Part shown: piece by piece, positions 3,633-27,815 of the stretch
Layout: every line of letters starts with the position of its first letter
Numbering within the stretch: the first letter of the stretch is position 1
Translations under genes and position numbers: made by a program
Notes under the pieces: generated by a model
Seen by the model: only the letters and a program-made list of their open reading frames with translations
Told to the model about the DNA's origin: nothing
The model's database searches: none
Source of the DNA: a virus
Direction: 5' to 3' (one strand)
Virus record (IMG/VR): IMGVR_UViG_3300046369_000281
Span: 1-38,780 of that record
DNA: 38,780 nt

Positions 3633-3756
3633 AAAAATATTAGAAGAAAAGTTAAAGGATAATCCTAACTATAATTTAATAAGAAAACTACAACAAAAAT
3701 TAGATGAAGAGCAGGAAACAAAGTCGAGTAGACGCACTAGAGATAAAGGTAAGTAG
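3625..3756 (+). CDS. Small basic hypothetical protein
   Basis: A 43-residue, highly charged frame (MIKKILEEKLKDN to SSRRTRDKGK) with a predicted helix followed by a basic tail. It starts inside the end of the previous gene (8-base overlap), and the next mini-gene starts inside it in another frame. The basic tail would suit nucleic-acid binding, but nothing else supports this. No family recognised. Confidence 0.45.
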   Translation: MIKKILEEKLKDNPNYNLIRKLQQKLDEEQETKSSRRTRDKGK

Positions 3757-3856
3757 GTTAACAACTATGATCATAGGTATGATGGAAACAATCAAAAGGA
3801 TGCCTGACTACGAAGAAGCTATAGAAAAACTTAAGCAAGATGAAGGAATTTCTTAA
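3704..3856 (+). CDS. Small hypothetical protein, coiled-coil-like
   Basis: A 50-residue frame beginning MKSRKQSRVDALEIKVSRLT. The heptad-like spacing of Leu, Ile, Val, Leu, Met and Ile predicts an amphipathic helix. It overlaps the previous mini-gene by 53 bases and the next gene by 17 bases. An internal ATG at 3767 would give a 29-residue form with a weaker helix. No recognised family; function unknown. Confidence 0.45.
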   Translation: MKSRKQSRVDALEIKVSRLTTMIIGMMETIKRMPDYEEAIEKLKQDEGIS

Positions 3857-4106
3857 GGATCTTGTAAGGAAAAAGAAACTAACACCAACCGAAAGACTCT
3901 CCTCACGTATTGGATACATGGGGAGTGGTCTTTTAATTGCTGCACAGTGGACTATAGAGCCAGTGTTCTATATAATCGGTTTCTTGTGTGTTATCGTTCA
4001 GGTATCTACAAGGAAGCAATGGAACTTAGTCCTGCTTAATATAAATGGTCTGATCGCATGGATTACACATCTATTTTTTGCGGTATTCCTTATTGTAAAT
4101 ACTTAA
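3840..4106 (+). CDS. Small multi-pass membrane protein
   Basis: An 88-residue protein with a basic, cytoplasmic-looking N-terminus (about residues 1-22, KDLVRKKK) followed by three hydrophobic segments at roughly 24-40, 41-57 and 64-86. The layout resembles small phage-encoded inner-membrane proteins in marine phages. No catalytic motif is seen. It is the last gene of the + strand cluster, and its last 36 bases overlap the end of the giant late gene on the opposite strand. It may alter the host membrane or be lysis-related, but no holin function can be shown. Confidence 0.65.
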   Translation: MKEFLKDLVRKKKLTPTERLSSRIGYMGSGLLIAAQWTIEPVFYIIGFLCVIVQVSTRKQWNLVLLNINGLIAWITHLFFAVFLIVNT

Positions 4107-7100: not shown

Positions 7101-10100
7101 TTCACCTGTAAACAAATCAAAATCAGAATGAGTTTTAGGAGAGTTTACTGTAGATATAAACCCACCTGCATCTAACAACTCCTTGATTCTATTGTTATCT
7201 TGAGAGGTTAACTCTGTGCCTTTATTATTTTCAATAACATACACATTACCTTGATTAGAACTAAATGTTATAAAAGGTTTAGATTCACTTTCACTTTGTA
7301 AAACTACATCGCCAACAAATACATTACCATTATTTCTTACATAAATTTTTGAAGATTGTTCGTCAATTATATAACTCATTTTAGAGTCTTGAGAATCAAA
7401 AGCATTTTCATAGACCAACCCATCATACCCCTCGTTTTCTAACACACTTATTAAAGCATCACTTTGTTTGGTGACTAAAGCATTAGAATCATAATATTCA
7501 TCTTCTGTTAGGTTTTCTTCTATATCATAAAATAAATCTTCTAAAGTTTCAAATTGTTCATCATTTATGATGTCATTCTTTATTAATTGTTGTATTAAAA
7601 TAGGTGGGTCAAACCTATGGCTATCTTCAACACGAAGAGGATTTCTTATATTTAAAAAAACATTTATTTCTCTTTCAAATTGTTCACCTTTGGCTATAGC
7701 TAAATCCTCTTTTATAGATGGTTCTCCAAAATGAAAACCTGTTTCCTTGTACTTAAATACATCAAAATAATTGTTTGTAAAATGTGATAATGGTAATGGT
7801 TCTCCGTTCTCATCGACAACCTTACTAGCATTTTCAGGGTCATTTTCCCAGTCACCAAACCAATTCTTAAATTTAGGTGTACGTACTATATCGTACTGCT
7901 CTTGATTTAGATTACTAGGCTTTCCATTTGGAGCTAAGTTAACCTGCTTACGAGATCTAGTGGTTGGTTCTTCTGTAAAGAATATTTGATCCTCTCTAGC
8001 AACATTTTCTGTCTCCTGTAGTGTAGTCTTCCTACGTTGTTCAGGAGTCATGTCTCTTCTTTTTTGAACATTACGAGCCTCTACTTCTCCTGCTAATCTT
8101 TTATATCTTTTAGGTATATCTAAGTATTCATTAAATAATTCCCTGTATGAGTTTTCCTGCTCAGATTTAGCTTCGTAAAGTCCATCTATTCCATCACCAT
8201 CATATTTATCCTTATATGATTCATATATATTGACAGCCTCTTTATTTACATCCTTTTTGATAATATCAGTAACGGCATCTAATATTTCAGATGATTCACT
8301 TGTAAAAGGTTCTATACCCTTTTCTGATTCAAGATAACTTTCTACATCTAATAACATCCTTACCTCATCTAACATCGATAAACGTTTTTCTACATCTTCA
8401 TAAGAATACTTATTTTTATCGACTACAGTATCTAAGTTACCTCCATTTTGCCAACCCTCTCTTGATTGTATGTAGTGCTGCACCTCATGTAGTAGTGTCT
8501 CAGAAATCTGTTCATTAGTAGAACTTCCTGGCTGTATATTAATAGTTATAGTTTTAAATGTTTGATCATATTCACCAAGTACTTCTGTACCTCCTCTAGC
8601 TTCTCTAAAGTATACTTTAATGTCAGATATAGGTGGGAAATCATCATATTTTATAGCACCCTCCCATACAGATCCATCGTCGTTATACATAGGCATCTCT
8701 CTTTTAAACCTAGTGCTGTAAGATTTGAAAAGTTTTTGATTATCAATAACATCACTCAGCTTACCTAAATACATTCCAGATGGTATTCTTTTTAAGTTCT
8801 TGTATGAAAAATCATCTTTTATTAATACATCATCAATCTCGTATCTAAACTTACCATCAGCACCTTTCTCCCATCCTGTTGCTATACGGATAGTTTTAGC
8901 AGACTCTCCAGCCTTTTCCATTTGTCTCGCAACACTAAGATTTTCTCTAACATTGTCAGACAACTCAGCATTCTCTCCTATGATCTGCTTACGAGATCTA
9001 GTGGTTGGTTTCCTTCTTATTTGTTCAGTCCTCTTAATAGGAACATCAATAAAATTACCTCCGTCTTCTCCTATAGAAACAAGTTTTGATATTGTTTCGG
9101 TTTCAGCAGCTAAAGATTTTCTTCTTTCAGCTTTGGTCATTGTTCTTCTGTTCTGAACATTCCTTGCCTCAACCTCACCAGATAGAGCTTCATATAACTT
9201 CATGTCGTAAACACTATGTATACCTGTGAGTAGTTTAGCTTCAGCTTCTGTAATATTAAACTTTTCTGATAGTTTTTTTCTAGCGTCAATAATGTTGTTA
9301 GATTTTCTTATAGTTTGAATAACATCTTCAACATTTTTATTTGTATAATCAGAAAGCATATCTCTCAAAGAACCCTCGTTGTTTTTATAAACTTCAATAA
9401 GTTCCTTTCTATCTCCATCAGTTATCGTAAGCTCTGGTCTTATCCCTGTTAACTCTTCAACCTTAGTTTGAATAGAGTTTATAGCTTTGTTACTCAAGTT
9501 ACGAACAGCCTTCTCAACCTCTTTTCTAATAGCAGCTGGGTTACCACCTCCTGTAAATCCTTCTTCAATCTGAATAACGTGCTGTATCTCATGAAGAAGA
9601 GTACCTAAATGATCTCCATTACCCTTTTCATCTATCAACCTAGAATTTAGTCTTATGTTTTCTCCATCGTATAATCCAGCGCTTTTAAATCCATCATTAA
9701 AATATACAGGGATATTAGAAATAAATGGATACGCTTTAAATAGTTTAGGAAAATCAAGAACCTTATTAACTATAGATTTACCAAATGAATTATCCAGACC
9801 TGGACCAATCTCTTTTGCTTTTGATGTATCAAGCTCTAATCTTAACTTTCCATCAGTGCCAACCTCAAAACCTGTATCTTGCTTAACCTTAGTAGGATCC
9901 ACTCCTTTTTTGATCATATCTTCAGCCTTCTTCTTGTCTGATTTTTGATCGGCAGTTAGTTTCGCCTTAACTCCTATAAATTGCTTACGCTTTCTAGTGG
10001 TTGGTTTTATATCTGTATTAAATGACCCTGACATTATTGAAACATTACCTACTTTATAAACTTTACCAGTAGAGGTCTTTAGTACTTCGGATCCGTTCTG

Positions 10101-13100
10101 TCTATTTTTAGGTAATATAAGTTTTGGTTTTGAACCATCCTTTAATCTAACATGAAATGGATAGCTAGGATGAGAGTCTTCAACAACCTCAACTTCACTA
10201 TTAACCTCTATTATACCATATACATCTCCAACAGATAAACCTTTAGTTAATTGTTCTGCTGCAACACCAGCGACTAAATCACCTAGTGATTGAGCTATCT
10301 TTGTTTTACCTTTACCTAGTTTCTTATTAGTATCACCACCTAGAAGCTCTATTATTTTTGTAGAATTTTCCTTAACACTCTTTGATTGAGCTATTCTACC
10401 TATAATATCTTTAACTACAGTACCTCTTTTTTCAAAAGTAGTGGTAGTTGGATCTGAAAAATATTCATTTATATCTGACTTTAACTGTTTAGAACTACCA
10501 CTTAGACTTATAATGCCTCCAGCAGCTTTTACTGCTCCAGATACAGCTGACCTAAAATCAGACGGACTTATAAGACCTTTATCTAACATAACATCAAGTA
10601 TAGCTAAACTTGAATTAACTCCTGATACACTACTTATTAGTTTTTGGTCAGCACCTTTAGTTAAGACTAATAGTCCTTTACCTTCATTACTCTTAAAAGA
10701 GTCATTAATCATTTTAGCTAAAGTATTTGCAGTACCTTTTTTTCCAGAAGCCCAAACATCACCATATTTTGTTACAAAAAATATACCTCCACCACCTTCA
10801 AATATTTGTTTTCCATCTATAGATATAGTACCAGCAAGCATATCATCAGGAGATGTTATAGCTACTTGATTTCCTGAAAAACCACTAACATCATTTACTT
10901 CTACTAAAAGATTTTTATCTTTTAATTCTTGTATTTTATTTGCTTCAGTATACTGAACATCAAATCCACCTACAGACTTTCTTTCTATAAGTTTTATTGG
11001 ATTAGAAACTACCTTACCTCCTTTTAAAACACTAACATCCTGATCAGTAATAGCCTCCCCTTTAGAAACCTTTTTAGCTATAGTGTTAAGCACATCAATA
11101 ACCTCACTATCTGTGAATGGCTTCATACCAAACATCTTAGCAAGCCTATCCAGGAATCTTTTTATAACATTCTTAGTTGGCTTTGGTAATGAGTCGTACT
11201 CAGTGGCAAGGTATCCTATAAGCTCTGCAAGCTTCTCTTCATTCTGTACAGCTGAGTCATAGTTATTGCTTCCGTCAGCATTCTTTGATTCAGCAAAGTT
11301 ATCTATAAGCTTTTTTAGTTCGGCAGGTGCAGACTTGTATACAGCCTTTATCATAGCAGCAGAAAGCCTCTGAGCCTCTGCATCCGTCTTCACCATGTTA
11401 AGGAATATAGCGTGGAATGACTCGTGAGCTACAGTCCTTGCGTTAGCCTTTTCAGGGTTTATGTGGATGACCTTCTTAACCTTTCCGTCAACTACAGTCT
11501 CGTCATATGTACCTGCTGTCTTTTGTTTACGACCTGTCTCTCCTGTTGCTTCAGCATACGCTTGTTCACTCTCATGCAGTATCACCTCAACATCTGGTGC
11601 TATCTTAGACAGTGCGTTCAATGCATTATCAACCTGATTTCTTTGGCTAGGTGCTTTGAACATGTCTCTCAATTGCTGAACTTCACCTTCTACTTTCGCA
11701 GATTCAGGTGAGAAATTTTTAGCAAGTTCGTAGGCTTGTTCATAATCTTCAATACGTTGACCCTCTCCTTTTTTTGCTTTATATCCAGGATCGTAAACAA
11801 AGAATACATTGTCTGGACGATTCTTTAAATTTGTTTTTTCCCATCCTTTAGGAGCAAACTCAGGGTTGAATGTCATACGAGCAATAGGTCTGAATCCATT
11901 TTTTATATATATGTCTTCAAGGTTTGTTCCTTTACCACTCTCTACATTAACACCAAATGCGTCAAAGAACTTACCTCCAGCTTCTATTCGTGCATCTTGA
12001 AGTACTTTTGCAGCCTGTGTTCTATCTGCTCCTGGTTGTTTAAATAAACCACCCATGTAACCGTCTTTCTTGACGTAGGCTCCAGCCTTACCGTCTTCGG
12101 TCATGAATAATTTACCTCCCTCATCCACAATATCTTGTGCGTCTTCTTGTGTTACAGGTGTAACTTGTAGTTTATCCTCAACACGCTGAGCTATAGCCTC
12201 TTGTTGTGAGGCTGCAAATGCTGCCGTATCGGTGGTTTCCTTTACTTCTTCTGGTTTGTAAGCACGTTCATCTACTTCCGCTCCTTCTGTAGTAGTCTGC
12301 TCAGTACCTTGATCTGTTTTGCCTTGGGAAGCTGCTTCAGCTTGTCTAAGTTCGTTTTGGAATTCTTCATCTTGCTCTAATAATTCGTTAATTCTTTGTT
12401 CTTTCTCTGGAGATTGAGCCTCCTTCAGTAGTATTTGATATGCAGCGTCTTCTGCGTTTGCACCTCTTAGTGTTCTTGTTACAGATCCGTCAGGGCTTTG
12501 TAACACAACCCTAGATATGTTACCTCTCTTATCTCTCTTTATCCCTTTTTTATTTGGTAACAGTGTGTCTTCACCAACAATTAAGTTACCTTGACTATCA
12601 GTCTTAACATCACTCTCTTGGGGTACAATACCCATATCCTCTAAGGTACTATCAGATATCTCATCAACGTTTCCAATCTCAGTTATATTACCATCAGCAT
12701 CCTCAACAACTACCCGCTGTCCATCAACATACATATCACCCTCAATAGGTGTATCTAATTTGCTTCCACCAAGATCAGTTAAGGTAATTGGTCTGTTTAG
12801 TGCGTCACTTATCTTTTCCTTTTTCTTTTCTGTGACAAAAGGCTCCCGTACTTCTGCTTCCACTTCCTGTACACCTTCGGCTGGTTCAGCATCAGTTTTT
12901 TGCTCTTGAATGGAATCTTCATCTGTTTTAGTTTTGTTAATAATATCTTCGGCTTCCTGCTTATCTTTTTTGTAAAGCGCATCTAACTGTGCGTCTACAT
13001 CAGCTATCTTATTATCTATATTTTGTTTACCAGGACCTTCTAATCCTTCCTTTTGATTAATTAATTTTTGTCTTTGAATTAATAAGTCCGAAGCAGTCTC

Positions 13101-15605
13101 CATGTTTTCAGAAACAAGTATAGTTCCCTTGGTTAGGTTTTCTGCTGTTTGCATGCTGTATATCTCTGTGTAAGCATTAGAAGCTTCTTTTTTAGTAAGT
13201 GAACCTTCTTTTACTAAAGCGTCTAAAGTTCCCTGTAGGTCGCCTATATCTGCTGCTATTGTTCTAACTAAATCAGCCCTCTTATTTCCTGATAATAACT
13301 TTCTACTACCTAAGATGCTTGTGGCTCCTAAAGTCATTACAGCAGTCTCTATTATGTTTTCTTTTGTTATTTTAGAATCTAATACATTTTGACCTATACT
13401 TTTGTTTACTAGATAGTTTATTCCTTTTTCAGAAAATAACACAGGAAGTTCTTCTACAAACAATTCCTTTCCATTTTCTTTTATCAACTCGGAAAATTTT
13501 CTTTTAAACTCTTTAGTAGTAAAGTCTTTCCCTTTAGTAATCGCTAGGTTTTTTATTTGATTTTTAATCCCTGTTAATCCTGTTAAAAGCTTTTCGTTGC
13601 TTCCTGCTAATCCTGAGAATATACCATCTAGAGTGGATATTGCTTGACCTGCATTAACAGCTATATCCATAGCTTCTTTTTCACTCATCCCAGTGGCGAT
13701 TAATTGAGACCTAATATCATCAACATTATCTACAACCCCACTAGTAAAAGAAGTAATACCCATTCCAATAGAGCCTGCTCTCTTTCCTTTTAATCCTAAT
13801 GTATTTTTTACTTTACCACCTGTTCTTATTAATCCAAATAAATTAACTAATGTACTTGTGAGCCCTGTAGCAACAGAACCTCCTGTCCACATGGTTTCTT
13901 CTTCAGGAACATCCTTAGATCTTTTTTGTATTTCTTTTACATCAGACAAAGGAATAATTCCATCCATTAATATATTTGTTTCCGTGTCATAAACCTTTCC
14001 GTTCTTATCGACAAAGTATTGTTGACCTCTATATGTAACAGGTTTACCCGACATAAACCCTGACCTTTTTACAGCACCATATTCCAAATCAACATGTTCA
14101 GCTGAGTCGGTAAACATATCACTCAATCCTGCAAGAAATCCTTTCTTATCATGTCCAATAGTCGCTAATCTTTGGTCTATAAAAGCTGGTATACCTCCCA
14201 AAAAATTCATAGAAAAATCTGAAATAGCTGCTCCTCCTGCTCTTAACAACTCTATCGTTCCTTGACTAGTTTCATTTAAACCGCCTTCTTTTACAGCAGA
14301 ATAAAGTCTTTTTCTTTTTTCTAAATCTTTATCTACAGTCTTTTCTTTGAACTTAGGAAACAAGTCTATTGCCCTACTCATTACCTGAACTTTACTGTAA
14401 AACTCTTTTTGAAGGTTTTTTTCTTCTTTTTTTAATACCTTAATTTTTTCAGGATTTGAAGTTAGTTTTTGTTTTGCTTGGTTTTTCTCCAAGTCATTAG
14501 TTATACCATTTAATTGCGTTGCTTGGTATGCTTGAAGTTTTTCGTATTGTCTTTGTTCTTTTTCAAATTCATCACCCTCTTCACTTGTAAGAAGTCTTTT
14601 CATAAATTTAAACACAGAACCTTCTTGTCTTGTGTTTACTTTATCCCATTTTAAATAATCTTCTTGATTAATTCCTAATGAATCTAGTTTACTTGCATCA
14701 GGCACATCGTCTCTGTCAAAATCTTCGACATCCACCTGAACGTCTGTGTAGTTTTTTTTATATGAATCATCTCTTGAAGTTTCATATATTTTTATAGCCT
14801 CTATTATCTCAGGTTTTATTTGAGATTCTTTTTTATACTGAATTTCACCAGTCTCAGGGTTTTTAAGTCTATATGATTTTTCTCTACTTTCTAGTCGCTC
14901 TTTATCAAAATCAGAAATCCCCTCTAACCCTAAAGACCTAAAGTCTTCGTTTGCTTCAATATATCCTACTGAATCTAAGAGTTGTATGTTTTTATTTGCA
15001 TCGTATATAGGTTTCCAAGAACCTTTTCCATAGGCTATTGCAGATTCTTTATCATCTCCAAAATCTATAACCTCACCTCTGTTTTGAGCTACTTCATAAA
15101 CAGAACTCCAATCTTGTTCTGCTTGATTAGACATATCCACAAAAGAACCATCTTTGTTTTGAAATACTGTAGGGAATGAAAACCAATTACCTTGACCATC
15201 AGTTTCTGTTCTCATTTTGTGTGTAGAAACACTTCCATCTTCATTTGATAAAACACCTTCTCTATAAGGAGCATCAGGAATGTATAATTCAAACTCTTCT
15301 TCTTCCTCTAAAGTAGGTATATCAACTGTTACGTCTGAAGACTCCAATGATGTAGGAGTTTTTTCTTCCTTGGTAGTGGATTCCGTAACGCCCTCTTGAG
15401 AAGTAGAAACGACAGAATCGTCTTTTTTTTTTACAAGAGAAACGAAATCATCATATGACCCAAATACAGACTCTCCTTTAGAATCGTAAACATCCTTTAT
15501 ATAACTGTCGTCAGATGTTATTAATGAATAATAATCATTGTAATTACCAAATACAGATTCTCCTCCAAGATTGTCGTATATGTCTTTTATATATTTATCG
15601 TCCAT
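4071..15605 (-). CDS. Giant polyvalent internal virion protein (3 zincin motifs, ART-like, LPD38-like)
   Basis: A 3844-residue protein, nearly a third of the window. In order: two YIKD-x-YD repeats (4-59); a phage module with NEDGSVSTHKM and WFSFPTVFQN (about 110-200); helical and membrane-like stretches (about 420-800); an acidic linker (about 880-1150); an acetyltransferase-like segment (about 1170-1270); zincin 1 with AHESFH, His1394-Glu1395-His1398; zincin 2 LLHEIQH, His2005-His2009; zincin 3 LLHEVQH, His2373-His2377; an ART-like segment starting FGDWENDPENASKVVDENG (about 2560-2760); a helical region (2870-3300); and an LPD38-like region around residue 3530 (FKKLPVVG). Polyvalent proteins of this kind are packaged and injected with phage DNA, and their enzyme domains act on host defences or host proteins. 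Last late gene, one base after its neighbour. No RNA polymerase DxDGD motif seen. Confidence 0.85.
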   Translation of the reverse strand: MDDKYIKDIYDNLGGESVFGNYNDYYSLITSDDSYIKDVYDSKGESVFGSYDDFVSLVKKKDDSVVSTSQEGVTESTTKEEKTPTSLESSDVTVDIPTLEEEEEFELYIPDAPYREGVLSNEDGSVSTHKMRTETDGQGNWFSFPTVFQNKDGSFVDMSNQAEQDWSSVYEVAQNRGEVIDFGDDKESAIAYGKGSWKPIYDANKNIQLLDSVGYIEANEDFRSLGLEGISDFDKERLESREKSYRLKNPETGEIQYKKESQIKPEIIEAIKIYETSRDDSYKKNYTDVQVDVEDFDRDDVPDASKLDSLGINQEDYLKWDKVNTRQEGSVFKFMKRLLTSEEGDEFEKEQRQYEKLQAYQATQLNGITNDLEKNQAKQKLTSNPEKIKVLKKEEKNLQKEFYSKVQVMSRAIDLFPKFKEKTVDKDLEKRKRLYSAVKEGGLNETSQGTIELLRAGGAAISDFSMNFLGGIPAFIDQRLATIGHDKKGFLAGLSDMFTDSAEHVDLEYGAVKRSGFMSGKPVTYRGQQYFVDKNGKVYDTETNILMDGIIPLSDVKEIQKRSKDVPEEETMWTGGSVATGLTSTLVNLFGLIRTGGKVKNTLGLKGKRAGSIGMGITSFTSGVVDNVDDIRSQLIATGMSEKEAMDIAVNAGQAISTLDGIFSGLAGSNEKLLTGLTGIKNQIKNLAITKGKDFTTKEFKRKFSELIKENGKELFVEELPVLFSEKGINYLVNKSIGQNVLDSKITKENIIETAVMTLGATSILGSRKLLSGNKRADLVRTIAADIGDLQGTLDALVKEGSLTKKEASNAYTEIYSMQTAENLTKGTILVSENMETASDLLIQRQKLINQKEGLEGPGKQNIDNKIADVDAQLDALYKKDKQEAEDIINKTKTDEDSIQEQKTDAEPAEGVQEVEAEVREPFVTEKKKEKISDALNRPITLTDLGGSKLDTPIEGDMYVDGQRVVVEDADGNITEIGNVDEISDSTLEDMGIVPQESDVKTDSQGNLIVGEDTLLPNKKGIKRDKRGNISRVVLQSPDGSVTRTLRGANAEDAAYQILLKEAQSPEKEQRINELLEQDEEFQNELRQAEAASQGKTDQGTEQTTTEGAEVDERAYKPEEVKETTDTAAFAASQQEAIAQRVEDKLQVTPVTQEDAQDIVDEGGKLFMTEDGKAGAYVKKDGYMGGLFKQPGADRTQAAKVLQDARIEAGGKFFDAFGVNVESGKGTNLEDIYIKNGFRPIARMTFNPEFAPKGWEKTNLKNRPDNVFFVYDPGYKAKKGEGQRIEDYEQAYELAKNFSPESAKVEGEVQQLRDMFKAPSQRNQVDNALNALSKIAPDVEVILHESEQAYAEATGETGRKQKTAGTYDETVVDGKVKKVIHINPEKANARTVAHESFHAIFLNMVKTDAEAQRLSAAMIKAVYKSAPAELKKLIDNFAESKNADGSNNYDSAVQNEEKLAELIGYLATEYDSLPKPTKNVIKRFLDRLAKMFGMKPFTDSEVIDVLNTIAKKVSKGEAITDQDVSVLKGGKVVSNPIKLIERKSVGGFDVQYTEANKIQELKDKNLLVEVNDVSGFSGNQVAITSPDDMLAGTISIDGKQIFEGGGGIFFVTKYGDVWASGKKGTANTLAKMINDSFKSNEGKGLLVLTKGADQKLISSVSGVNSSLAILDVMLDKGLISPSDFRSAVSGAVKAAGGIISLSGSSKQLKSDINEYFSDPTTTTFEKRGTVVKDIIGRIAQSKSVKENSTKIIELLGGDTNKKLGKGKTKIAQSLGDLVAGVAAEQLTKGLSVGDVYGIIEVNSEVEVVEDSHPSYPFHVRLKDGSKPKLILPKNRQNGSEVLKTSTGKVYKVGNVSIMSGSFNTDIKPTTRKRKQFIGVKAKLTADQKSDKKKAEDMIKKGVDPTKVKQDTGFEVGTDGKLRLELDTSKAKEIGPGLDNSFGKSIVNKVLDFPKLFKAYPFISNIPVYFNDGFKSAGLYDGENIRLNSRLIDEKGNGDHLGTLLHEIQHVIQIEEGFTGGGNPAAIRKEVEKAVRNLSNKAINSIQTKVEELTGIRPELTITDGDRKELIEVYKNNEGSLRDMLSDYTNKNVEDVIQTIRKSNNIIDARKKLSEKFNITEAEAKLLTGIHSVYDMKLYEALSGEVEARNVQNRRTMTKAERRKSLAAETETISKLVSIGEDGGNFIDVPIKRTEQIRRKPTTRSRKQIIGENAELSDNVRENLSVARQMEKAGESAKTIRIATGWEKGADGKFRYEIDDVLIKDDFSYKNLKRIPSGMYLGKLSDVIDNQKLFKSYSTRFKREMPMYNDDGSVWEGAIKYDDFPPISDIKVYFREARGGTEVLGEYDQTFKTITINIQPGSSTNEQISETLLHEVQHYIQSREGWQNGGNLDTVVDKNKYSYEDVEKRLSMLDEVRMLLDVESYLESEKGIEPFTSESSEILDAVTDIIKKDVNKEAVNIYESYKDKYDGDGIDGLYEAKSEQENSYRELFNEYLDIPKRYKRLAGEVEARNVQKRRDMTPEQRRKTTLQETENVAREDQIFFTEEPTTRSRKQVNLAPNGKPSNLNQEQYDIVRTPKFKNWFGDWENDPENASKVVDENGEPLPLSHFTNNYFDVFKYKETGFHFGEPSIKEDLAIAKGEQFEREINVFLNIRNPLRVEDSHRFDPPILIQQLIKNDIINDEQFETLEDLFYDIEENLTEDEYYDSNALVTKQSDALISVLENEGYDGLVYENAFDSQDSKMSYIIDEQSSKIYVRNNGNVFVGDVVLQSESESKPFITFSSNQGNVYVIENNKGTELTSQDNNRIKELLDAGGFISTVNSPKTHSDFDLFTGEQKFTDSYITFESNQSKLADGSNTTFDPDAPSIRKQAPGRPSIGEIFRKGKENMISDAAIRQFAKGVGYTDAEITAAMNIPSSEEIVERSEKAIRDRLKKKDFKGTMRYLRKKIFDRQTYIKDVLKGVGNKKSVRAHNRLVTKAGAKGFANYRFTKAEKEIYSKLSEKEKKQLDALIYARRIVAINENRKKRDEKEYIGAGGYNYDKAKSEVEAFSNDKLSKRADKYFEVFNQNLKRLRDSGRISEDVYISLRDIEYSPIKTIKYIIGDNHSTSEMNNLANSIGVSQKDIMALSDENINDLITDSRWLLMMNISAVENRAATNEVLNLFYDAIESADADGLAAIGDNILDNPIIGNKESGAPKFKYDDAKVPVGYRTVSFFKDGVEHKMVMREEYARQLLDIKVDDKTLKALRKFTFGNVLRFFATSGNPLFIVGNTAVDFQNILFLGDTYSKFKLVGGVELGFDFVNNSLKKMFNTGSYQKTYEEFMTYGGGMDFLSVDGIKAIKGISRFNKPKTLLQKGMVKWGEGLSYLGETSEMAFRLAVYEKTRSKLINQYKKDNKKEPTGQDLEDILYESARESRETIDFSQGGDLVKSADYVLPYLNASVQGARRAVDYASKNPGGFASSMIQYAVMSGGLLASSLYMLSSAFDDEDDEEEKAKKMKDAWGSVSDYEKSAYHIIFTGDVDEDGEYEYYRFKKLPVVGSLSTVVEESIISTYLKSKGVDYEFNTESVSKALDKTSPIGITDIGSRNPVISGVLSYVYNKDTFTGEDIFRGPRGKKILPEAEGILDNKVEQIYKDIAPALGMSPKRTQVMVEKVITNERTNPLVGVMYGGYNGVFSKETTVGEEMKETMNGVLKSFSGKIKRSTNSKLQEYKKMDEVKKVEAEMETEIYIKEQKVYNAIKEKRKNKQDIDNGFLRDIVKENFDKKDWKKYGRKFSTYAKNANIDRSILDLIYEDTPEVQAYKIFSRYGDALDADEKEELKNAIRSARRNLNKKALSIYNKEYRKK
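7944..7969 (-). repeat. 26-base direct repeat, copy C (PTTRSRKQ linker)
   Basis: This 26-base stretch inside the giant gene is identical to the one at 8985-9010. It encodes the linker PTTRSRKQ at about residue 2546, immediately before the ART-like segment. Perfect DNA identity in a region whose flanks have diverged suggests recent duplication or recombination at the seam. Confidence 0.85.
8985..9010 (-). repeat. 26-base direct repeat, copy B (PTTRSRKQ linker)
   Basis: Identical over 26 bases to 7944-7969, about 1.04 kb away. It encodes PTTRSRKQ at about residue 2199, directly before the third-zincin module. A diverged third copy (PTTRKRKQ) lies at about 9981-10006 before the second-zincin module. 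Confidence 0.85.
9981..10006 (-). repeat. Diverged linker repeat, copy A (PTTRKRKQ)
   Basis: A diverged version of the linker repeats at 8985-9010 and 7944-7969, with matching ends (GCTTACG and CTAGTGGTTGGTT on the + strand) and changes in the middle. It encodes PTTRKRKQ at about residue 1867 and opens the second-zincin module. Spacing to the next copy is about 1.0 kb, the length of one module. Confidence 0.75.
15429..15596 (-). repeat. Two tandem 26-residue N-terminal repeats
   Basis: Residues 4-29 and 34-59 of the giant protein are copies of one unit: YIKDIYDNLGGESVFGNYND and YIKDVYDSKG-ESVFGSYDD. The units read as small helical or capping repeats and probably form the extreme N-terminal docking element of the protein. 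Confidence 0.75.
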
Positions 15606-15606
15606 C

Positions 15607-17196
15607 TTATTGTTTTCTATTTGATGCGTTTAAAGGATTTTCTCCTTGAGTTTTATTTAAGTTATCAACAGCATTAAGTACAAGACTTAGATTATCTACA
15701 CCTCCCTGTATATCTTTGCCGTTAACAGTAATATTGTTAGTCCCTGGTACAAAACTTATATTAGCAGCTCCACCAACTAAGTTCTGTATTCTATTTGCTA
15801 TCTCTTGACCCTTTTCATTACCTGATAATGTATTCCCCATAGAATCTTCTAATTTTTTAGTTATATTGGTTCTATTGGTTTGAGTATCAAATTTAGTTGA
15901 AGCTGTTACAAACACATTATACTTACTACTATTTGTTGGATCAAGTACTGATGTATTAAGACTTCCTTTTACACCTCTATCTTTAAAGAATTTACCTACT
16001 CCTACATGACCTGCTATTTCTTCACCGACCTGCTGTGCATTTCTATCTTTAGTATTTACTTTATACTCATTACCACTAGCATCTATTAATCTAAGAACAC
16101 CATCTTTATCAGGAGCTTTAGATCCTACAAATCCTTTTTCAGATAAAGCAGATTGTAGTGATGAAAAATCACCCCTAGAAACAAAGTTCTCAATTAAAGA
16201 GGCTACGTTTTTATCTGCTTTATCCCCAGCAGGAGGTCGTGGTCCTACAGGTCTTGATCTCTCTTGTTCTGTTCTACCTATAGCTGCGTCTATCTGATTA
16301 TAAAGACCCTCCTCTACAGTTTCTCTAATACCTTCAACGTCGAATACTATCTTACCTCCCTTATTCTTAGCCAATATATATTGTCCAGGATTTTCCTTAG
16401 CAAGCTTCTCGTCATAGGTTACATCCATGTTCATCATGTCGGCAGCAGCCTCTAATATTTTCTTATCACTATTAAGTATAGACTTAACTTTTGATTTTAG
16501 AGTATCCTTGTAAAAATCCTCACCCCTCTGTCTAAAGTCAGACACACTCTTGTATCCACCTTTACTTGTTAAAGTCCAATTAGATATACCCTTAACAACG
16601 TTAACAACCTCATTAGTTGTATTAAACCTATCGTACTGTTCATTTAGAATGGTATTTATTGATGTCGCAGGGACAACAATCTCATTACCACTCTCATCTC
16701 TAGTGACAAAACTACCACGACCCATGTCATCAATAATCAACTCAGACTTAGATATGTCTAAAGCACCTGCTACTTTCTTAGCTATAAAATCATTTAGAGA
16801 TCCACCAGTTTCTATAAACGCACCTATTTTTTCATTATAAACTTTTGTTACGTCATTGATGGCTTTAAATGTATCCGAAGCACCTTGTTTCTTTATTTTT
16901 GTATCATTAACCGATATCAGACCATTCTTCATTAAATTATGACTAGTCATAAGATAATTTTTATAGTTTTGAGCGTACTTTATCATAGCCTGATTCATAG
17001 TAGGGTCTAGACCCTTAGCATAATCATCTATTGCATTCAGCTTTTCAACCTGATCCTCTTCTATCTTTAGCTTAAGGTCGTCCCTTCTGCTCTTCTCTTT
17101 CATCAGGTTGTCAGAGATATTTTTAGTTATCCCAGACCAGTCTATCATAGACTTGCTTATGTCGTCTCTCTCTTTGTACTTGTAGAATGTAGCCAT
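15607..17196 (-). CDS. Putative internal virion protein
   Basis: A 529-residue protein starting MATFYKYKERDDISKSMIDW. The N-terminal third is helical and charged (about residues 20-140), and the C-terminal part is richer in Asn, Gly and Val and probably more beta-structured. There are no membrane segments or recognised enzymatic motifs. It lies between a small Ala/Gln-rich protein and the giant polyvalent protein, a position used for cargo or ejection proteins in podoviruses, so an internal virion role is inferred from context. The start codon is 13 bases after the upstream gene, and it ends one base before the giant gene. I do not recognise a named family. Confidence 0.7.
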   Translation of the reverse strand: MATFYKYKERDDISKSMIDWSGITKNISDNLMKEKSRRDDLKLKIEEDQVEKLNAIDDYAKGLDPTMNQAMIKYAQNYKNYLMTSHNLMKNGLISVNDTKIKKQGASDTFKAINDVTKVYNEKIGAFIETGGSLNDFIAKKVAGALDISKSELIIDDMGRGSFVTRDESGNEIVVPATSINTILNEQYDRFNTTNEVVNVVKGISNWTLTSKGGYKSVSDFRQRGEDFYKDTLKSKVKSILNSDKKILEAAADMMNMDVTYDEKLAKENPGQYILAKNKGGKIVFDVEGIRETVEEGLYNQIDAAIGRTEQERSRPVGPRPPAGDKADKNVASLIENFVSRGDFSSLQSALSEKGFVGSKAPDKDGVLRLIDASGNEYKVNTKDRNAQQVGEEIAGHVGVGKFFKDRGVKGSLNTSVLDPTNSSKYNVFVTASTKFDTQTNRTNITKKLEDSMGNTLSGNEKGQEIANRIQNLVGGAANISFVPGTNNITVNGKDIQGGVDNLSLVLNAVDNLNKTQGENPLNASNRKQ

Positions 17197-17209: not shown

Positions 17210-18076
17210 TTAATTTATAGGTATTATAGGCTGTATAGGCGTTATAGGTGCTATAGGTGTCTGAGAAATATTCCTATAAGCAGGTGTAGGTACTGTAGGC
17301 ATTATAGGTTGTATATTCATTGCAGGTGCTATAGGTGTCTGAGCAACACTCCTACCACCAGCTGTCAGTCCAGAGGCTAGGTTATTAAAACCTTGTTGAG
17401 TAATACCACTATCTATCATAGCTCTTCTAGCTTGTCTTGCATTCATATCTCCATACATACCTGTCTGTTGTTGGTACGCTGAAGCAGCGTCTAACTCTGC
17501 TTGTCTGCCACTACCATATAATGATTGACCCTCGTAAAATGTTTGAGCTGCACCACCTAATCCTGTTAATGCACCAGATAAAGCCTGTGCTGCCATCTGT
17601 TCTCTTTGGGCTGCTGCCATCTGAGCACCTTCCGCCTCTTGTAAGTTTATTGTCGCTAAAGATCTATCTATTGTAGCCTGCTCATCAGCAATCATCTTAT
17701 CTCTTTGGTATATAGCGTCAGCCATCTGTTGCCTTGTCTTCTCCGTTGCCATAGCTCCAACAGCCCCTAACTTACCTACACCAGCGGCTAATGTTCTAGC
17801 GTCAGCCTCACGTAACCCTTCTAAGGATTGCATCTGTTGTGCAGTTATCTCTCTTCCAGCCTGTTCATAAGCATCTAAAGGCACTTGTAAGCCTTCCATT
17901 CTATTAACCTCTATCTTACTCTTTGCTTGAGCCAAAGACTCTGCTGCTGCTCTCTCTGCGTCTCTCTGTTTCTTCTTTGCGTCTATAGATTGAGCTATAT
18001 CTAAACCCATACCCAATACTTGTAATCCTACACCTACAAAAGGTACTGCTGCTCCTAGTCCTGCTCCTGCTGCCAT
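17210..18076 (-). CDS. Putative internal/ejection protein, Ala/Gln-rich
   Basis: A 288-residue protein. The N-terminus (MAAGAGLGAAVPFVGVGLQV) is glycine- and alanine-rich and hydrophobic, compatible with a membrane-inserting segment. Residues about 33-190 form a long Ala/Gln/Glu-rich helix, probably a coiled coil, and the tail (about 240-288) is a Pro/Ile-rich repeat (QTPIAP, IQPI). This layout resembles small ejection proteins of podoviruses, which are released first and form part of the channel through the cell envelope. A candidate promoter (TATATTTGC) lies 22 bases upstream of the ATG, so this gene may open a transcript that includes the two genes after it. Function inferred from composition and context. 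Confidence 0.65.
   Translation of the reverse strand: MAAGAGLGAAVPFVGVGLQVLGMGLDIAQSIDAKKKQRDAERAAAESLAQAKSKIEVNRMEGLQVPLDAYEQAGREITAQQMQSLEGLREADARTLAAGVGKLGAVGAMATEKTRQQMADAIYQRDKMIADEQATIDRSLATINLQEAEGAQMAAAQREQMAAQALSGALTGLGGAAQTFYEGQSLYGSGRQAELDAASAYQQQTGMYGDMNARQARRAMIDSGITQQGFNNLASGLTAGGRSVAQTPIAPAMNIQPIMPTVPTPAYRNISQTPIAPITPIQPIIPIN
17246..17265 (-). repeat. 20-base direct repeat, copy 1
   Basis: Identical to 17324-17343, 78 bases away. Both copies encode QTPIAP in the Pro/Ile-rich tail of the 288-residue internal protein. The whole stretch 17215-17345 is a degenerate repeat of TATAGG-type units. Confidence 0.8.
17324..17343 (-). repeat. 20-base direct repeat, copy 2
   Basis: Identical to 17246-17265; encodes the first QTPIAP of the Pro/Ile-rich tail. 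The spacing of 78 bases is a whole number of codons, so unit gain or loss would keep the frame. Confidence 0.8.
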
Positions 18077-18114: not shown

Positions 18115-18871
18115 TTATGGATAACTCTTAAATAAAGATGATCCTACACCAAATATCTCGGTAAATGTGTTAGATAAATTAACAGGTAGCTCTAAATGGT
18201 ATTCTAGATAATATCCTGTAGTTCCGTAAGACTCAGCTACATTGTTCTTCACATACATCAAATACTCTCCAACAGTAGGTACAGAACCACCAGTAACCGT
18301 AGTGTCTACAGTTATGGTAATTACCATCAACAGAGGTTATGTCACCAATAAATATTGTATCTGTAAGTGTAGCCATACGCATCCTATCACCGACAGATAT
18401 CATACTGTCTAGTCTAAACCCAAACGTTATCAATACAGCTGAAGTGTCAGATGAATCTACATCCGTACTAGAACCAATACCTTGAAGAGATCTCATCTCA
18501 AAAACTCCGTCAGCATCATTTCTTCTAATGTGTCCATAGTAATCACCCTCCTTTAGACTAAACCAAGTATTATCTATAAAGCCAGAACCTAAATCACTTG
18601 TGACCGTGCAGTTAAATGGCTTAGTACTCTCTAAAGATATAGTCTTAAATGTCTTAACTGTAGATGGTTCTTCATTTATGACACCAGTTATAGTAGACAC
18701 ATACTGAGTTCCATAAAAATTATTCCTAGTATTATTGGTATTATGACGGTAAAGCTTACCACCCTTAAATGAATAAAAGTAGTTATTCATCCCTATCATC
18801 ATATCTGGCTCAAAGGAATAGAACGAAGTCCATCCCTTAGCTGACTCACTGTATGTTAATGTTTTATCCAT
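18115..18871 (-). pseudogene. Tail protein gene split by a one-base frameshift
   Basis: Two overlapping frames belong to one protein. The upstream frame (18871 to about 18322) starts MDKTLTYSESAKGWTSFYSF, with SFKGGKLYRHN and FYGTQYVSTITGVINEEPST, a pattern I associate with C-terminal parts of podoviral tail or stabilization proteins. It loses sense after TSVDGN, ending in a Cys/Trp-rich tail to 18233. The other frame resumes at once with TITVDTTVTGGSVPT and ends in EIFGVGSSLFKSYP, the expected terminus. Removing one T in the AATTACC stretch joins them into a 251-residue protein (757 bases minus one is 252 codons). It could be a real mutation, a sequencing or assembly indel, or a programmed +1 shift. 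It lies 5 bases after the stabilization gene and is probably its partner. Confidence 0.75.
18314..18327. repeat. 14-bp perfect palindrome at the frameshift
   Basis: ATGGTAATTACCAT is its own reverse complement and sits exactly where the reading frame of the tail gene changes. It may have promoted an indel, confused base calling or assembly, or (least likely) serve as a recoding signal. Confidence 0.8.
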
Positions 18872-18876
18872 CTATT

Positions 18877-21800
18877 TTAGCATTGAATAATGTTAGTTAT
18901 AACTCCACTAGTACCTATAACAATTATATAGTCTGATACTGTTATACTTGATAATACATAGTTCTGTCCATCTGTAAGACCGCTAGATAGTCTATACGTT
19001 CCAGAAGAAAGAAGTACTATATCTCCTCCACTAGTCTGGTACAAGTTTTGACCAACTATTATTGCATCAGTCTCATCTACACTTACAATACTAGTAGCAA
19101 CTCCATCAGCATCATTACAATCATCCACAGCTACAACGCTATCGTATGTCACACCATTATCCGACCATTGTGATGTAAACGTAGTGTCTGAAGTTATAGT
19201 TGTTGGAAGTGTCGGAGACCATCCTGTAAATGTCCAACCAAATCTAGTTGGTGTGCCTGGGCTTGTTACAGATAACGGAGACAGTCCAAACTGACTAGAA
19301 TACCTTTCATTCCCTAAGCTATTATCAAACGTAGCTGTAACAGTTGTACCTGAAACCTGATCTATATAATCCCATACCAAATACAGATACTGATTATTAG
19401 AAGTGTTAGTGTATGTAAATGAAGCCTCATACACATCTGTCTCTGGACTTAATATAGGCGTAGCCTCTGTTAGTAAAGGTATAAGTGTAGCTATGTCTCC
19501 TTCCTGATAAAGAACATCAGAGACTAGGTACTTGAACTTGTCAATATCCCATTCAGCCAAATCACCTTCCAGCTTCTTATATCTCATAGTGACAGTTGCA
19601 CCCTCAGATGGTGATCCACCTTGAGACTCAAGGTTAGTAGATGTCTCGTATAAAGATACAGGACCTTCACCAAAAGTAAGAGAATCAGTCACAACCTTAC
19701 TAGAATATCCATTATCCTCCCATAGGTATTCGTGATGAATACTAAGGTCTTCCATTTCATCTGTATTATTAACTATCCTTACAATAGTAAGCTGCTGTGC
19801 CTGAACACATCCAAAGTTTATTTCATATGTAGCATTTGTTGGTGTCAGTACTAGCACGCACTCGTTTACATTAAGTTCATCCTTTGAGAATGTTAATGTA
19901 CCTGTTCCAGTTAACACCTGGTCTAGTACATCTGTACCGTCATACGTTACAAGTATATCTAAACTACCAGCTGCAATGTCGTAATCAATATCAACATCTC
20001 CTGTAAAATCATCTAGGTTAATATTATATGTAGCTACAGTGCTTGATGACTGTTGTGCTAAACTGAATCCACAATCTCTAGTATCTTCCTGTACATCTAT
20101 TAAGTTATCAGTAAATGATAAAACATACTCATTCATGTAAGGATCATACTCACCTAAATGCATTTTATTAGTGTTCTCTATAAACCTATCTCTAAACCAA
20201 GAACGCATTCCTAATGAAGAAATAACATTAAGCTGGTCACCTGTACCACCAGCACCTCTTAAGTTTATTACAGCACCTCTCTTTGAGTCTGTGAAGAATA
20301 TATCGAAACCATAGTTAGAAAAACTTTCAGGATTATTACTTATACCATACTCCTCAATCCTTGGTACTTGTTGTCCAAGTACGTCAGGTGTGGATAGTAT
20401 AGCTCCTCCTGCCTGTGCATCTGAAAATAAATTCTTACCATTAGCAAGTACATAAGATATCTTATCCTCTTGAAGGGTGAGTATATCACTCATCCTTGCA
20501 TGAAGTACCTCTATAGGTCCAAAGTTTTGTTCTAGCGTCTTGAAGTTTACTAAACCTAGATTGAACTCGTTTAGCTTGTTAAGGTTTGTCTCCTGATTGT
20601 ACACACCACTATAAGTAATGTCTGCATACCTATGAGCCTCCTTGTAATCTTGCTCAGACACAGCGGTCACCCTAGCACCAAGATTAAACCCTGGTTGAGC
20701 TAAACCATCCTCTATCTTAAAACTTTCAACACCGTTACCAAAGGCGAAGCAGTTATACATGTCTAGATTAACAATACACGAATCACTATTTGTTTGGTCT
20801 TGTACATCACCAGTATGATGTCTGTCCTCTGTTATTGGGTAACTCTTAAAACTCTCGTAGTATATCTCGTTAGTGTTTTCCTCTGGTATAGTTTCAAAAA
20901 CTAAAAGTTCTCCTGCATTAAATACCTGAATATGAACAGTAAGCCAATAGTTTCTTCCATTACACTTACCACCAGCTTGAGTGAATGTCAAGAAAGAACT
21001 GTAATTAGAAGTCCCTGGTGTATTATTTCTAACAAACTGAATACCCGTTACACCTTCACCAGCATCATAACCACCAGATAATATATTATAAGAAGGGAGA
21101 AGAACCGCTGCTGTCCCAATACTTTCATCAAAATCTGCGCTAGGAGTAGTGTCGTCAGAACTCTCAGGTCCTGGGTTATTTGTAGGGTTATTAAAGTCTA
21201 CGTTCTCGCTTATTATAAAGTCGTAAAGACTATCGTAATCTCTGGTAGCTATAAACGTTCTATCGAACTTAAAATACCTAGATCCACAACCACTTCCTGA
21301 ACCATATCTGTGGTTATTGAAAAATATCCTAACCTCACTTCCAGACGTTATTGAATAGTCTATAAAAGTCCCTGGATTATCTGGGTCTTCTATATATGTA
21401 GGGTACGCTTGACCAACACCATTTTTTTTAGTCAAACTATCAAAATCTATGTCCTCTACCTCGGACTCAGCGATAGTAAAATTACTAGGTCTGATCTTCA
21501 TATACACCCCACTACTAGGAGGGACCTCATTAGTATCGTCTATAAAATGTTTTTCCTTTGTCTCTAAATCTAACACCTTGGTCTTTATAACATCTGTTGT
21601 AGGTCCATCTGATGCTTTCTTTACTATTAAACTGTCACCGTTCTTAAACTTTGTCTGATTATCACCCTCAAGCTTTAACCACCAAGCACCTTCACTAGTG
21701 TCAAAATAATAGTTCTGCACATAAACAGTCTCGTAATTACCCTTACTCGGCTTCATTACAAGCCTATATCTCTTTGCCCAGCTTGGAGCTAAACTATTTA

Positions 21801-23586
21801 TTGTTGTTGTAATTGAGTTCTTATTTATAGAGTACTGAGGCTCTACATACACTGTATTGTAATTACTAACAAGAGCAGTTGAAGCTCTGTTATACTCGTC
21901 AAGATAAACAATACCTACCTCATAATCCCTATTACTATGCAGACTCTGTCTATTACCTTGTTCAGTTATGGAGGCAGTTGTAGAGCTGTTAGAGAAATAT
22001 TCGTATGCATAAGTTCCAGGGTTTGTACTATCCTCAAACTCTACTGCTGGTATCTGTATACTTAGTGTATTTCCAGAGTGAGATACTATAAATCCTTGGT
22101 CTGAAGATGTAATACCTCCATCAGAAATACCCCAGTTACCACTAGCGTGGTCTACTATATTTGAAAAAAACAAGTCACTCAGGCTATATCCATCATCCTC
22201 AGTACCTGGGAATCCTGCAGGGTCTGTTAACTCTATAGAGGCTAAAAAATCAGTATCTGTAGCAAGATCCTGTGCATCTGAATAATCTCTAGGGAATATA
22301 AATTCAAACGTTTCCTGGTAATTATTCTCTACCTCACTTCCATCTACAAAAGAAGCATCTCCACCAAATGAATCATGAACAATATTAAAATCTATATTAA
22401 GACTACCTCCCTCTAACATATCAATATCAGTAAGGTCTATATCTAGCCTTGAGTTTGTTATAGTTACATTAGGTGTTTCTAATGTGTAATCAGTTCCATC
22501 ATCCCTAGATTCTACTAAAGGATTGAATCCTACATCCTCAGTATTAAGTTCAATACTGTAATCAATAATGGTGTCTACATTATGTCCATCATAATAGTTA
22601 CCATACATAATCCTATTACCTATAGTTGTCTGTGCCTTAGCCTTCTTAGGAACGTTATCATATAACCTTAGTAACTCACTCTCTGGTAGCGTGGTATATA
22701 TCTTTTGGTTAGTGAACTCTACAGATACATTATCATTGTCACCCCATCCCATCTCTGACTTATCGTACTTCTCTATAACATTAATTATATTTGTGTTAGA
22801 TAGTTTGAAACACAAGTCAATACCAATAACGTCAGATGGTCCAGTAAAAAAATCAACATTAACAGAGTTAATATTATTTCTCATACCAATCATATCATAG
22901 CTACCGTAGTCAAATCTAAACTGTCCTGGAGTAAATGCTAAATCTGAAAACTCAGAAAGGGCAGAATACTCTCCGTCCTTGTACTTATATCTATAAGAAA
23001 ATCGGATAAACTTCTCCTCCATATAGTTATCCTTTTTAGCTTTCTTTGATAGTGTTAAAACAGGAGCATCTACAGGTGGCTTAACTATAACCGATATGTC
23101 ATCCTCTGTAATCTGATCAACACCTCCAATTGGTTCAGGGTATGACGACAGAACGTTTATACGTCTCGGTTGATTATAATTGTCTGTAAAGAATAATAGG
23201 TCATCTATAAGATTGATACCATTGATAAGATACCTCTCATCGAAGTTTAATACAGTCTCTGATACAACATGATATGTTATTGAATCTAACTTGGTATTGT
23301 ATGATAATATCATATCTACAAAATCAGACGTTAAAAACCAGTATATTTTTTCATTTTCTCCATCCTCATACGCACCGATACATACAGCATCCGCCACATC
23401 TTTTTCATTATACCTAGGTGTTGCTAACAACTCATTACCTTTTGTGTTTTCAGCACTTAATGCTTCACCATCCTCAGAAGATGATACACGTATGTTTAAC
23501 GCATCTGTATAATCACCAGCAGGTATTAATCTTTCGTCTAGACTTTTATTCATTCTAGACCCTATAAAATTCTTGTTTATAATCAT
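18877..23586 (-). CDS. Tail stabilization protein (crAss-like), very large
   Basis: A 1569-residue, Asp/Asn/Ser/Thr-rich, beta-structured protein. Its start, MIINKNFIGSRMNKSLDERL followed by IPAGDYTDALNIRVSSSEDG, is the typical beginning of the tail stabilization protein of crAss-like and related podoviruses. Residues about 1415-1475 match a Listeria/Bacteroides (InlB B-type, Flg_new) repeat, with PGTPTRFGWTFTGWSPTLP and TFTSQWS. The rest shows long runs of strands and turns, suiting a large tail-hub or nozzle protein. It is two bases downstream of the ring-protein gene and just upstream of the split tail gene. The family's usual role is to close or stabilize the portal-tail junction. Family call from start, context and size; the C-terminal addition may be specific to this phage. 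Confidence 0.8.
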   Translation of the reverse strand: MIINKNFIGSRMNKSLDERLIPAGDYTDALNIRVSSSEDGEALSAENTKGNELLATPRYNEKDVADAVCIGAYEDGENEKIYWFLTSDFVDMILSYNTKLDSITYHVVSETVLNFDERYLINGINLIDDLLFFTDNYNQPRRINVLSSYPEPIGGVDQITEDDISVIVKPPVDAPVLTLSKKAKKDNYMEEKFIRFSYRYKYKDGEYSALSEFSDLAFTPGQFRFDYGSYDMIGMRNNINSVNVDFFTGPSDVIGIDLCFKLSNTNIINVIEKYDKSEMGWGDNDNVSVEFTNQKIYTTLPESELLRLYDNVPKKAKAQTTIGNRIMYGNYYDGHNVDTIIDYSIELNTEDVGFNPLVESRDDGTDYTLETPNVTITNSRLDIDLTDIDMLEGGSLNIDFNIVHDSFGGDASFVDGSEVENNYQETFEFIFPRDYSDAQDLATDTDFLASIELTDPAGFPGTEDDGYSLSDLFFSNIVDHASGNWGISDGGITSSDQGFIVSHSGNTLSIQIPAVEFEDSTNPGTYAYEYFSNSSTTASITEQGNRQSLHSNRDYEVGIVYLDEYNRASTALVSNYNTVYVEPQYSINKNSITTTINSLAPSWAKRYRLVMKPSKGNYETVYVQNYYFDTSEGAWWLKLEGDNQTKFKNGDSLIVKKASDGPTTDVIKTKVLDLETKEKHFIDDTNEVPPSSGVYMKIRPSNFTIAESEVEDIDFDSLTKKNGVGQAYPTYIEDPDNPGTFIDYSITSGSEVRIFFNNHRYGSGSGCGSRYFKFDRTFIATRDYDSLYDFIISENVDFNNPTNNPGPESSDDTTPSADFDESIGTAAVLLPSYNILSGGYDAGEGVTGIQFVRNNTPGTSNYSSFLTFTQAGGKCNGRNYWLTVHIQVFNAGELLVFETIPEENTNEIYYESFKSYPITEDRHHTGDVQDQTNSDSCIVNLDMYNCFAFGNGVESFKIEDGLAQPGFNLGARVTAVSEQDYKEAHRYADITYSGVYNQETNLNKLNEFNLGLVNFKTLEQNFGPIEVLHARMSDILTLQEDKISYVLANGKNLFSDAQAGGAILSTPDVLGQQVPRIEEYGISNNPESFSNYGFDIFFTDSKRGAVINLRGAGGTGDQLNVISSLGMRSWFRDRFIENTNKMHLGEYDPYMNEYVLSFTDNLIDVQEDTRDCGFSLAQQSSSTVATYNINLDDFTGDVDIDYDIAAGSLDILVTYDGTDVLDQVLTGTGTLTFSKDELNVNECVLVLTPTNATYEINFGCVQAQQLTIVRIVNNTDEMEDLSIHHEYLWEDNGYSSKVVTDSLTFGEGPVSLYETSTNLESQGGSPSEGATVTMRYKKLEGDLAEWDIDKFKYLVSDVLYQEGDIATLIPLLTEATPILSPETDVYEASFTYTNTSNNQYLYLVWDYIDQVSGTTVTATFDNSLGNERYSSQFGLSPLSVTSPGTPTRFGWTFTGWSPTLPTTITSDTTFTSQWSDNGVTYDSVVAVDDCNDADGVATSIVSVDETDAIIVGQNLYQTSGGDIVLLSSGTYRLSSGLTDGQNYVLSSITVSDYIIVIGTSGVITNIIQC

Positions 23587-26370: not shown

Positions 26371-26390
26371 AAAATTACATATTTTAATTC

Positions 26391-27791
26391 TTATTTAAAT
26401 AAGAAGAAATTGTTTGCACCTAATGTACATAAAGCTCTCTCTGATAAGAAGTGAACCTCCATAGCATCTAAATCGCTATTTGAAGCACCTCCAGCAGAAC
26501 CTACGATCCAAGACTTCATCTTACGATCTTCAGTTTCAGAAGCTCTATATCTTACGTGTAAGAATGGACGCTTAGCGTTTTTACCCATGATTTGGTCATA
26601 AACGTTAGTAGATCCAGCAGGAACTAATACTCCGTCTACAGCACCACCAACGATACCACCTCTCATAGTTGCATCATTTAAGTACTTCCAGTCAGACTTA
26701 TAGAAGTCATATCCTCTACGGAATCCGTTGAATCCTAAGTTTAAAGCCATATCTTGATCGTTATCAAACAATCCAAAAGAAGCACCTGAAGAACCGAAGT
26801 TATTCTGTGCAGCTAATACATTGTCAATCTCGAAAGAAAGTGCACGGTTAACGAAAAGAACGTTCTCTTCGATAGCACCTTGCTTATCTAAACGAGTAAC
26901 AACAGCATCGATATCATCTAAACTAGCTAAAGAACCTGTAGTAGTGTTACCACCATTTTCTATAGCGTAGAATAAACCTTCAGAACCTTTATTTCCTAAG
27001 TCTCCACTAGCAGCAATTGCTCCAGAGTTAGCCTCAGCAGGAACAGCCTCGATCATTGCAGTCTCTAAATAATCTTCAAAACGCTGACGAGTTTCGTGCT
27101 CAGACTTTAAGTACCATAGGTATCCTGAACCATTCTCCCCTTCAACTTCGATCCATCCGATCTGAGCCATGTCAGAACCTGATACTGAATACTTGTCCTT
27201 GATGATGATTGGGTTATTCTCCTTGATATCCTCTTCAGCCTCTAAAGCACCATCCATTCCGTTTGATCCTTTTTTAAATTCAGAACCATAAACAAATAAG
27301 TCTAAGTCAGTAGCAGAGTTATCACCTGCTGATAATCCAGCAACAGCAGGAAGACCAGCTGCGTCATAGATAGCTACAGTTACAGTGTCAGTAGCAGTAG
27401 CAGTGATGATACCTTTGAAAGAAGCAGTAGCTGATGTAGATCCATCAGATACCATTACAGTCTGTCCTTTTCTAAGTGCGTGACCTGTAATGTTAAGTAC
27501 AACGTCATCCTGACCAGCTACTTCAGCATCGTCAAGAGTAACACCCTCATATTTAATGTGTAAACGTCCTTGCTCAGACCACTTGATTAAGTCAGAAGTA
27601 CAAGGCATTTCAGCTCCAACCATTCTTAAGAAAGAGCTAACTGATCTGTTACCATAACGCTCGAATTCTTTTTCGTAAGTGTCTGGTAAGTACTGATTCA
27701 AAAAGTTGAAGTCAGTAATGTAATTTCCAGGTAATGTTACCTGGCTTGGAGCTGGAGTTAAACTCACAGATCCTCCTAATGTAAAAGCCAT
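26391..27791 (-). CDS. Major capsid protein
   Basis: A 466-residue protein in the position expected for the capsid gene, after the scaffold-like gene. Its start (MAFTLGGSVSLTPAPSQVTL) and segments such as NFLNQYLPDTYEKEFERYGN and VGAEMPCTSDLIKWSEQGRL match my recollection of crAss-like capsid proteins. Residues about 75-175 form a Gly/Ala/Thr-rich insertion (QTVMVSDGSTSATASFKG). No protease site can be recognised. Codon usage looks richer in preferred codons (GAAGCA, GCT, GGT) than neighbours, as expected for the most abundant virion protein. It is followed by a hairpin. HK97-type fold is known for the family, not visible here. Confidence 0.82.
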   Translation of the reverse strand: MAFTLGGSVSLTPAPSQVTLPGNYITDFNFLNQYLPDTYEKEFERYGNRSVSSFLRMVGAEMPCTSDLIKWSEQGRLHIKYEGVTLDDAEVAGQDDVVLNITGHALRKGQTVMVSDGSTSATASFKGIITATATDTVTVAIYDAAGLPAVAGLSAGDNSATDLDLFVYGSEFKKGSNGMDGALEAEEDIKENNPIIIKDKYSVSGSDMAQIGWIEVEGENGSGYLWYLKSEHETRQRFEDYLETAMIEAVPAEANSGAIAASGDLGNKGSEGLFYAIENGGNTTTGSLASLDDIDAVVTRLDKQGAIEENVLFVNRALSFEIDNVLAAQNNFGSSGASFGLFDNDQDMALNLGFNGFRRGYDFYKSDWKYLNDATMRGGIVGGAVDGVLVPAGSTNVYDQIMGKNAKRPFLHVRYRASETEDRKMKSWIVGSAGGASNSDLDAMEVHFLSERALCTLGANNFFLFK

Positions 27792-27815
27792 AATTTAATG
27801 TTTTTTTTGTTATTT

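Follow-up and report, generated by a model that had tools for sequence, protein, structure and literature searches.

A one-base frame break, very probably not programmed, in a crAssphage-type tail muzzle gene (C-terminal part) on a metagenomic phage contig

Introduction

Programmed ribosomal frameshifting is known from the phage tail assembly chaperones of the gpG/gpGT type, and a programmed +1 site is marked by a stop or slow codon together with a shift-prone sequence at the site. Quasipalindrome mutation, first noted in yeast CYC1 and in rIIB of phage T4, is described as rendering an inverted repeat more perfect (PMC7202029). The muzzle of phicrAss001 is described as a large hexamer that sits at the end of the tail and likely gates ejection (PMC10172136).

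Here we consider an interrupted tail gene for which each of these systems offers a point of comparison. The window, by which we mean the whole stretch of DNA that was analysed, is a 38,780-base IMG/VR virus record with phage genes such as those for the terminase large subunit and the portal, and its virion structural genes lie on the minus strand. An initial annotation had reported a tail gene split by exactly one base at a perfect palindrome, and had left a choice among error, loss of function and programmed +1 recoding.

Results

The interrupted gene occupies 18115–18871 on the minus strand. Its 757 bases equal 252 codons (251 residues plus a stop) and one base, as the initial annotation had counted, and in the nearest relatives the gene is unbroken with exactly 251 residues and a stop. 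The 0-frame ORF (18233–18871, minus strand) starts at an ATG and encodes 212 residues, of which 1–183 are homologous to the relatives and the remainder is an out-of-frame tail; in the ORF translation, SVDG is followed by the nonsense stretch GNYHNCRHYGYWWFCTYCW.... The frame ending at 18115 carries the homologous protein on (TITVDTTVTGGSVPTVGEYLMYVKNNVAESYG...SLFKSYP), bearing out the claim that the two frames join into a sensible protein. Counted from its in-frame ATG at 18327, this shifted-frame remainder (18115–18327, minus strand) has 70 residues, and of the 30 columns that are invariant in the family alignment, 7 lie in the part of the protein beyond the break. At the break the 0 frame reads GGT AAT TAC CAT, containing no stop, and by eye it terminates only at 18233–18235. 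The lesion itself lies at 18319–18320 (minus strand), where two window bases stand against one different base in the three nearest relatives, a net gain of one base. These relatives, L001–L003, share 96–98% DNA identity with the window over the region and have one base fewer exactly at the lesion (window ggtaattaccataa, relatives ggtaa-aaccataa in the alignment). The 14-bp perfect palindrome at the break, ATGGTAATTACCAT at 18314–18327, is indeed there and nowhere else in the window; its counterpart in the three nearest relatives is ATGGTAAAACCAT.

The annotation's description of a tail gene was correct and can be sharpened. Against PF25729 (crAss_MUZ_C, curated cut-off 27), the 251-residue protein of the nearest relative, L001, scored 48.9 bits and the 0-frame ORF of the window 50.1 bits; both also matched the last 35 positions of PF25731 (crAss_MUZ), below its cut-off. 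An AlphaFold2 model of L001, built on an input alignment of 34 sequences including L001, had a mean pLDDT of 75 and a pTM of 0.58. The top solved match of this model in Foldseek was the phicrAss001 muzzle, 7qok_A, with E 1.6e-3 and probability 0.99, read alongside a TM of 0.23 and the model pLDDT of 75. Searching the sequences of solved structures with the family profile returned one insignificant match only, a nucleotide search of annotated phages gave no match, and the closest PHROGs of the small gene, phrog_38031 and phrog_18548, are of unknown function. From the above-cut-off likeness to the C-terminal domain of the crAssphage muzzle (PF25729; phicrAss001 gp44, PDB 7qok/7qol), we conclude that the gene encodes the C-terminal portion of a tail muzzle of the crAssphage type.

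Immediately upstream in the transcript is an intact gene of 1569 residues (18877–23586, minus strand) for the N-terminal part of a muzzle-type protein (phrog_14478). Its best stretch matches positions 2–697 of phrog_14478, and the small gene matches positions 1123–1286; because the adjacent genes match separate parts of the same family, the muzzle-type protein is here shared between two genes. Cellulophaga phage phi38:1, by contrast, has the domain within one gene of 1324 residues, and the solved phicrAss001 muzzle chain has 1361 residues, unlike the separate C-terminal gene of the window. Variants of the arrangement were seen among relatives. MW202828 carries a putative glycosidase gene between the two muzzle genes. 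In four others (L036:1381–3789, L053:1255–3792, L060:2005–3786 and L019:2233–3792) the muzzle C-terminal domain ends a longer frame of 520–846 residues; the first part of that frame gave no above-cut-off Pfam match and may represent an additional module fused to the domain.

The initial annotation had itself proposed, as a test of recoding, to ask whether homologues conserve the two frames. A scan of viral contigs yielded 239 relatives. The best 80 of these were examined in their matching frames, and in all 80 a single frame runs across the site; the expected C-terminus was reached in 79, while L041 leaves its contig past the site. The site was likewise uninterrupted in six of six relatives on bacterial genome contigs and in three of three named phage loci examined, leaving no instance of the two-frame layout in these three sets. 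Among annotated phage records, a single locus spanned 80% or more of the protein in 86 of 89. When the 70-residue C-terminal piece was used as a separate scan query it found three loci, on the contigs of L001–L003. Since no examined relative has the extra base, a sequencing error or a chance mutation is most likely. Two of the options raised by the initial annotation, error and mutation, thus stand, and the third, recoding, is ruled against because the examined homologues do not conserve two frames.

In the AlphaFold2 model the break falls in a predicted turn between strands 171–182 and 185–189, and the six later strands would be lost. Ordinary translation would yield the 212-residue product without the conserved C-terminal strands, and if the base is real the protein is probably defective, because these strands would be missing.

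We compared the rest of the window with the contigs of L001 and L003, hereafter G001 and G003. In alignments at 93% identity or more, which covered about 27 kb in pieces for G003 and about 22 kb for G001, the lesion was the only net frame-breaking coding indel. The paired indels at 35081/35088 and 20254/20258 either cancel or add up to three; around 15606–15624 the gaps are at the end of a gene that stays in frame, and those at 27794–27807 are intergenic. Of 27 window ORFs queried by tblastn, 25 matched G003 and 16 matched G001, and the interrupted ORF alone needed two frames (residues 1–183 in one, 186–212 in another). A generally error-rich contig was rejected on this ground, no other gene matching two frames of a near relative.

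Elsewhere the comparison touched on exchange between lineages. At 17217–17512 the DNA match to G001 is broken, with flanks at about 97–98%, a sign of mosaic exchange in the 17210–18076 gene. In the 3844-residue gene at 4071–15605, the first 1067 residues match G001 at 99% identity and G003 at only about 33%, and the C-terminal part (2805–3844) is 94% identical to G003, which by sequence comparison is a domain-level exchange.

The lesion sits in a 121-bp divergent patch (18293–18413) with 14 substitutions and one insertion relative to G001. The patch adjoins 482 bp (18414–18895) with zero differences from G001, and on its other side 18115–18292 has three; G003 shows the same differences as G001 over 18115 to 18413. 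By eye, the patch has ten differing codons, of which seven change the amino acid, and the codons that differ ahead of the lesion are in frame. Of the four codons that differ downstream of the lesion, three encode the same amino acid when read in the relatives' frame (by eye), a small number, which suits either a frame selected until very recently or an unreal break. The nearest relatives have the codon AAA at the site, not AAT, and therefore the window's own unbroken ancestor has never been seen. Two exact-pattern scans for the local haplotype of the window, one of them with or without the extra base, found none, although records very near the window may be omitted from such scans. Either import from a divergent strain or a short chimera made in assembly may account for the patch. 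Adenine-directed retroelement mutagenesis was set aside as its cause, as the changes are not confined to one base. The patch falls in a loop that is of variable length in the family.

Perfect palindromes of this size are not rare in the window: nine maximal ones of at least 14 bp occur, compared with 3.6 ± 1.9 in 100 first-order Markov simulations, and one such palindrome is accordingly unremarkable. Of the other eight, six had an alignment to G003, and five of these six had one to G001 as well; five were unchanged wherever aligned, and the sixth, at 30824–30839, differs in both. A role for the palindrome at the break as a conserved regulatory or binding site was rejected, given its absence from the three nearest relatives and the nine of this size in the window. 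What does go beyond chance is that the lesion itself makes the palindrome. Starting from the relatives' sequence, a palindrome of at least 14 bp arises from none of the 43 distinct single insertions and from 4 of 1492 variants that combine an insertion with a substitution; if AAT is assumed as the ancestral codon, 2 of 43 single insertions suffice. Plain random error accounts poorly for the coincidence of a lesion placed exactly in the palindrome. Separately, an 18-bp perfect palindrome, TTCTTATTTAAATAAGAA, lies at 26388–26405, at the end of the 26391–27791 gene, and is the same in G001 and G003.

Discussion

We are confident that the interruption is an isolated, non-programmed one-base frame break in the muzzle C-terminal gene, peculiar to this one metagenomic contig. 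As to where the base came from, a local error of consensus or assembly has about an even chance, and a genuine recent mutation is somewhat less probable.

If the break is an artefact, a short stretch of the consensus would rest on a few reads that came from a divergent strain. The dimensions of the patch are what one might expect of such an event: its 121 bp with 15 differences are about one short read long, between flanks nearly or fully identical to G001. That the lesion is the sole frame-breaking coding indel relative to near relatives points in the same direction, and we infer that loss of a virion gene is unlikely to dominate a lytic phage population. On the other hand, the patch bases outside the lesion read as normal in-frame protein variation, and because of this the patch itself looks like real DNA. 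Under an error, moreover, the perfect 14-bp palindrome would be a coincidence, shared by between 2 of 43 and 4 of 1492 of the possible variants.

Nearly as plausible is that the change is real and recent, in which case it plausibly arose by quasipalindrome template switching. In the imperfect hairpin ATGGT-AAA-ACCAT, a polymerase would copy one arm as the template for the other, and such templated copying would at once perfect the palindrome and add a base, explaining both substitution and insertion by one event. The imperfect inverted repeat of the relatives, ATGGTAAAACCAT with arms of 5 bp, does stand in the window as the perfect ATGGTAATTACCAT; because the change perfects an imperfect hairpin present in the relatives, quasipalindrome misreplication is a good candidate. 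The likeness to the known template-switch mutations (PMC7202029) is that an imperfect repeat is made perfect and the reading frame is lost; unlike those cases, the window lesion is known from a single metagenomic contig. The hairpin arms are short, however, and had the ancestor carried AAT, a plain one-base duplication would have been enough. A real lesion should also impair a virion protein. The palindrome pattern thus fits quasipalindrome template switching, as one case without a parent sequence and not as proof.

Should the base be real and the phage viable, the two-gene muzzle might be made as three polypeptides, the last from the palindrome-framed ATG, or be restored by recoding; we consider this combination very unlikely. 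Its more specific form, in which the 212-residue ORF and a 70-residue piece begun at the ATG at 18327 are each expressed and come together, has a slim chance at best. Without the extra base that ATG would be out of frame with the C-terminal piece, and the muzzle of this lineage is already two genes, both of which would suit a further division. However, the break is predicted to fall in a hairpin turn inside beta-structure and not between domains, no strong ribosome-binding sequence precedes the ATG (by eye), and the layout is found in no examined relative.

Least probable of all is that ribosomes shift at the site to make a fused protein: its only point is that the two frames join sensibly, whereas the layout recurs in no examined relative, the three nearest relatives differ in sequence at the site, and inspection by eye revealed neither a stop nor an obvious stall codon there, the 0 frame running on to 18233–18235. 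The resemblance to gpG/gpGT-type chaperones lies in the two overlapping frames of a phage tail gene; unlike in those, the gene is of another kind, the layout is not conserved and no slippery signal was identified.

Returning to the non-programmed frame break, we draw attention to its implications. A true recoding site would have made this a novel type of regulated virion gene, and the comparison with relatives removes that reading. As a general caution, a single-base split in a metagenomic phage contig should be checked against relatives or reads before it is called recoding. The locus is also a possible natural example of a frameshift that perfects a palindrome.
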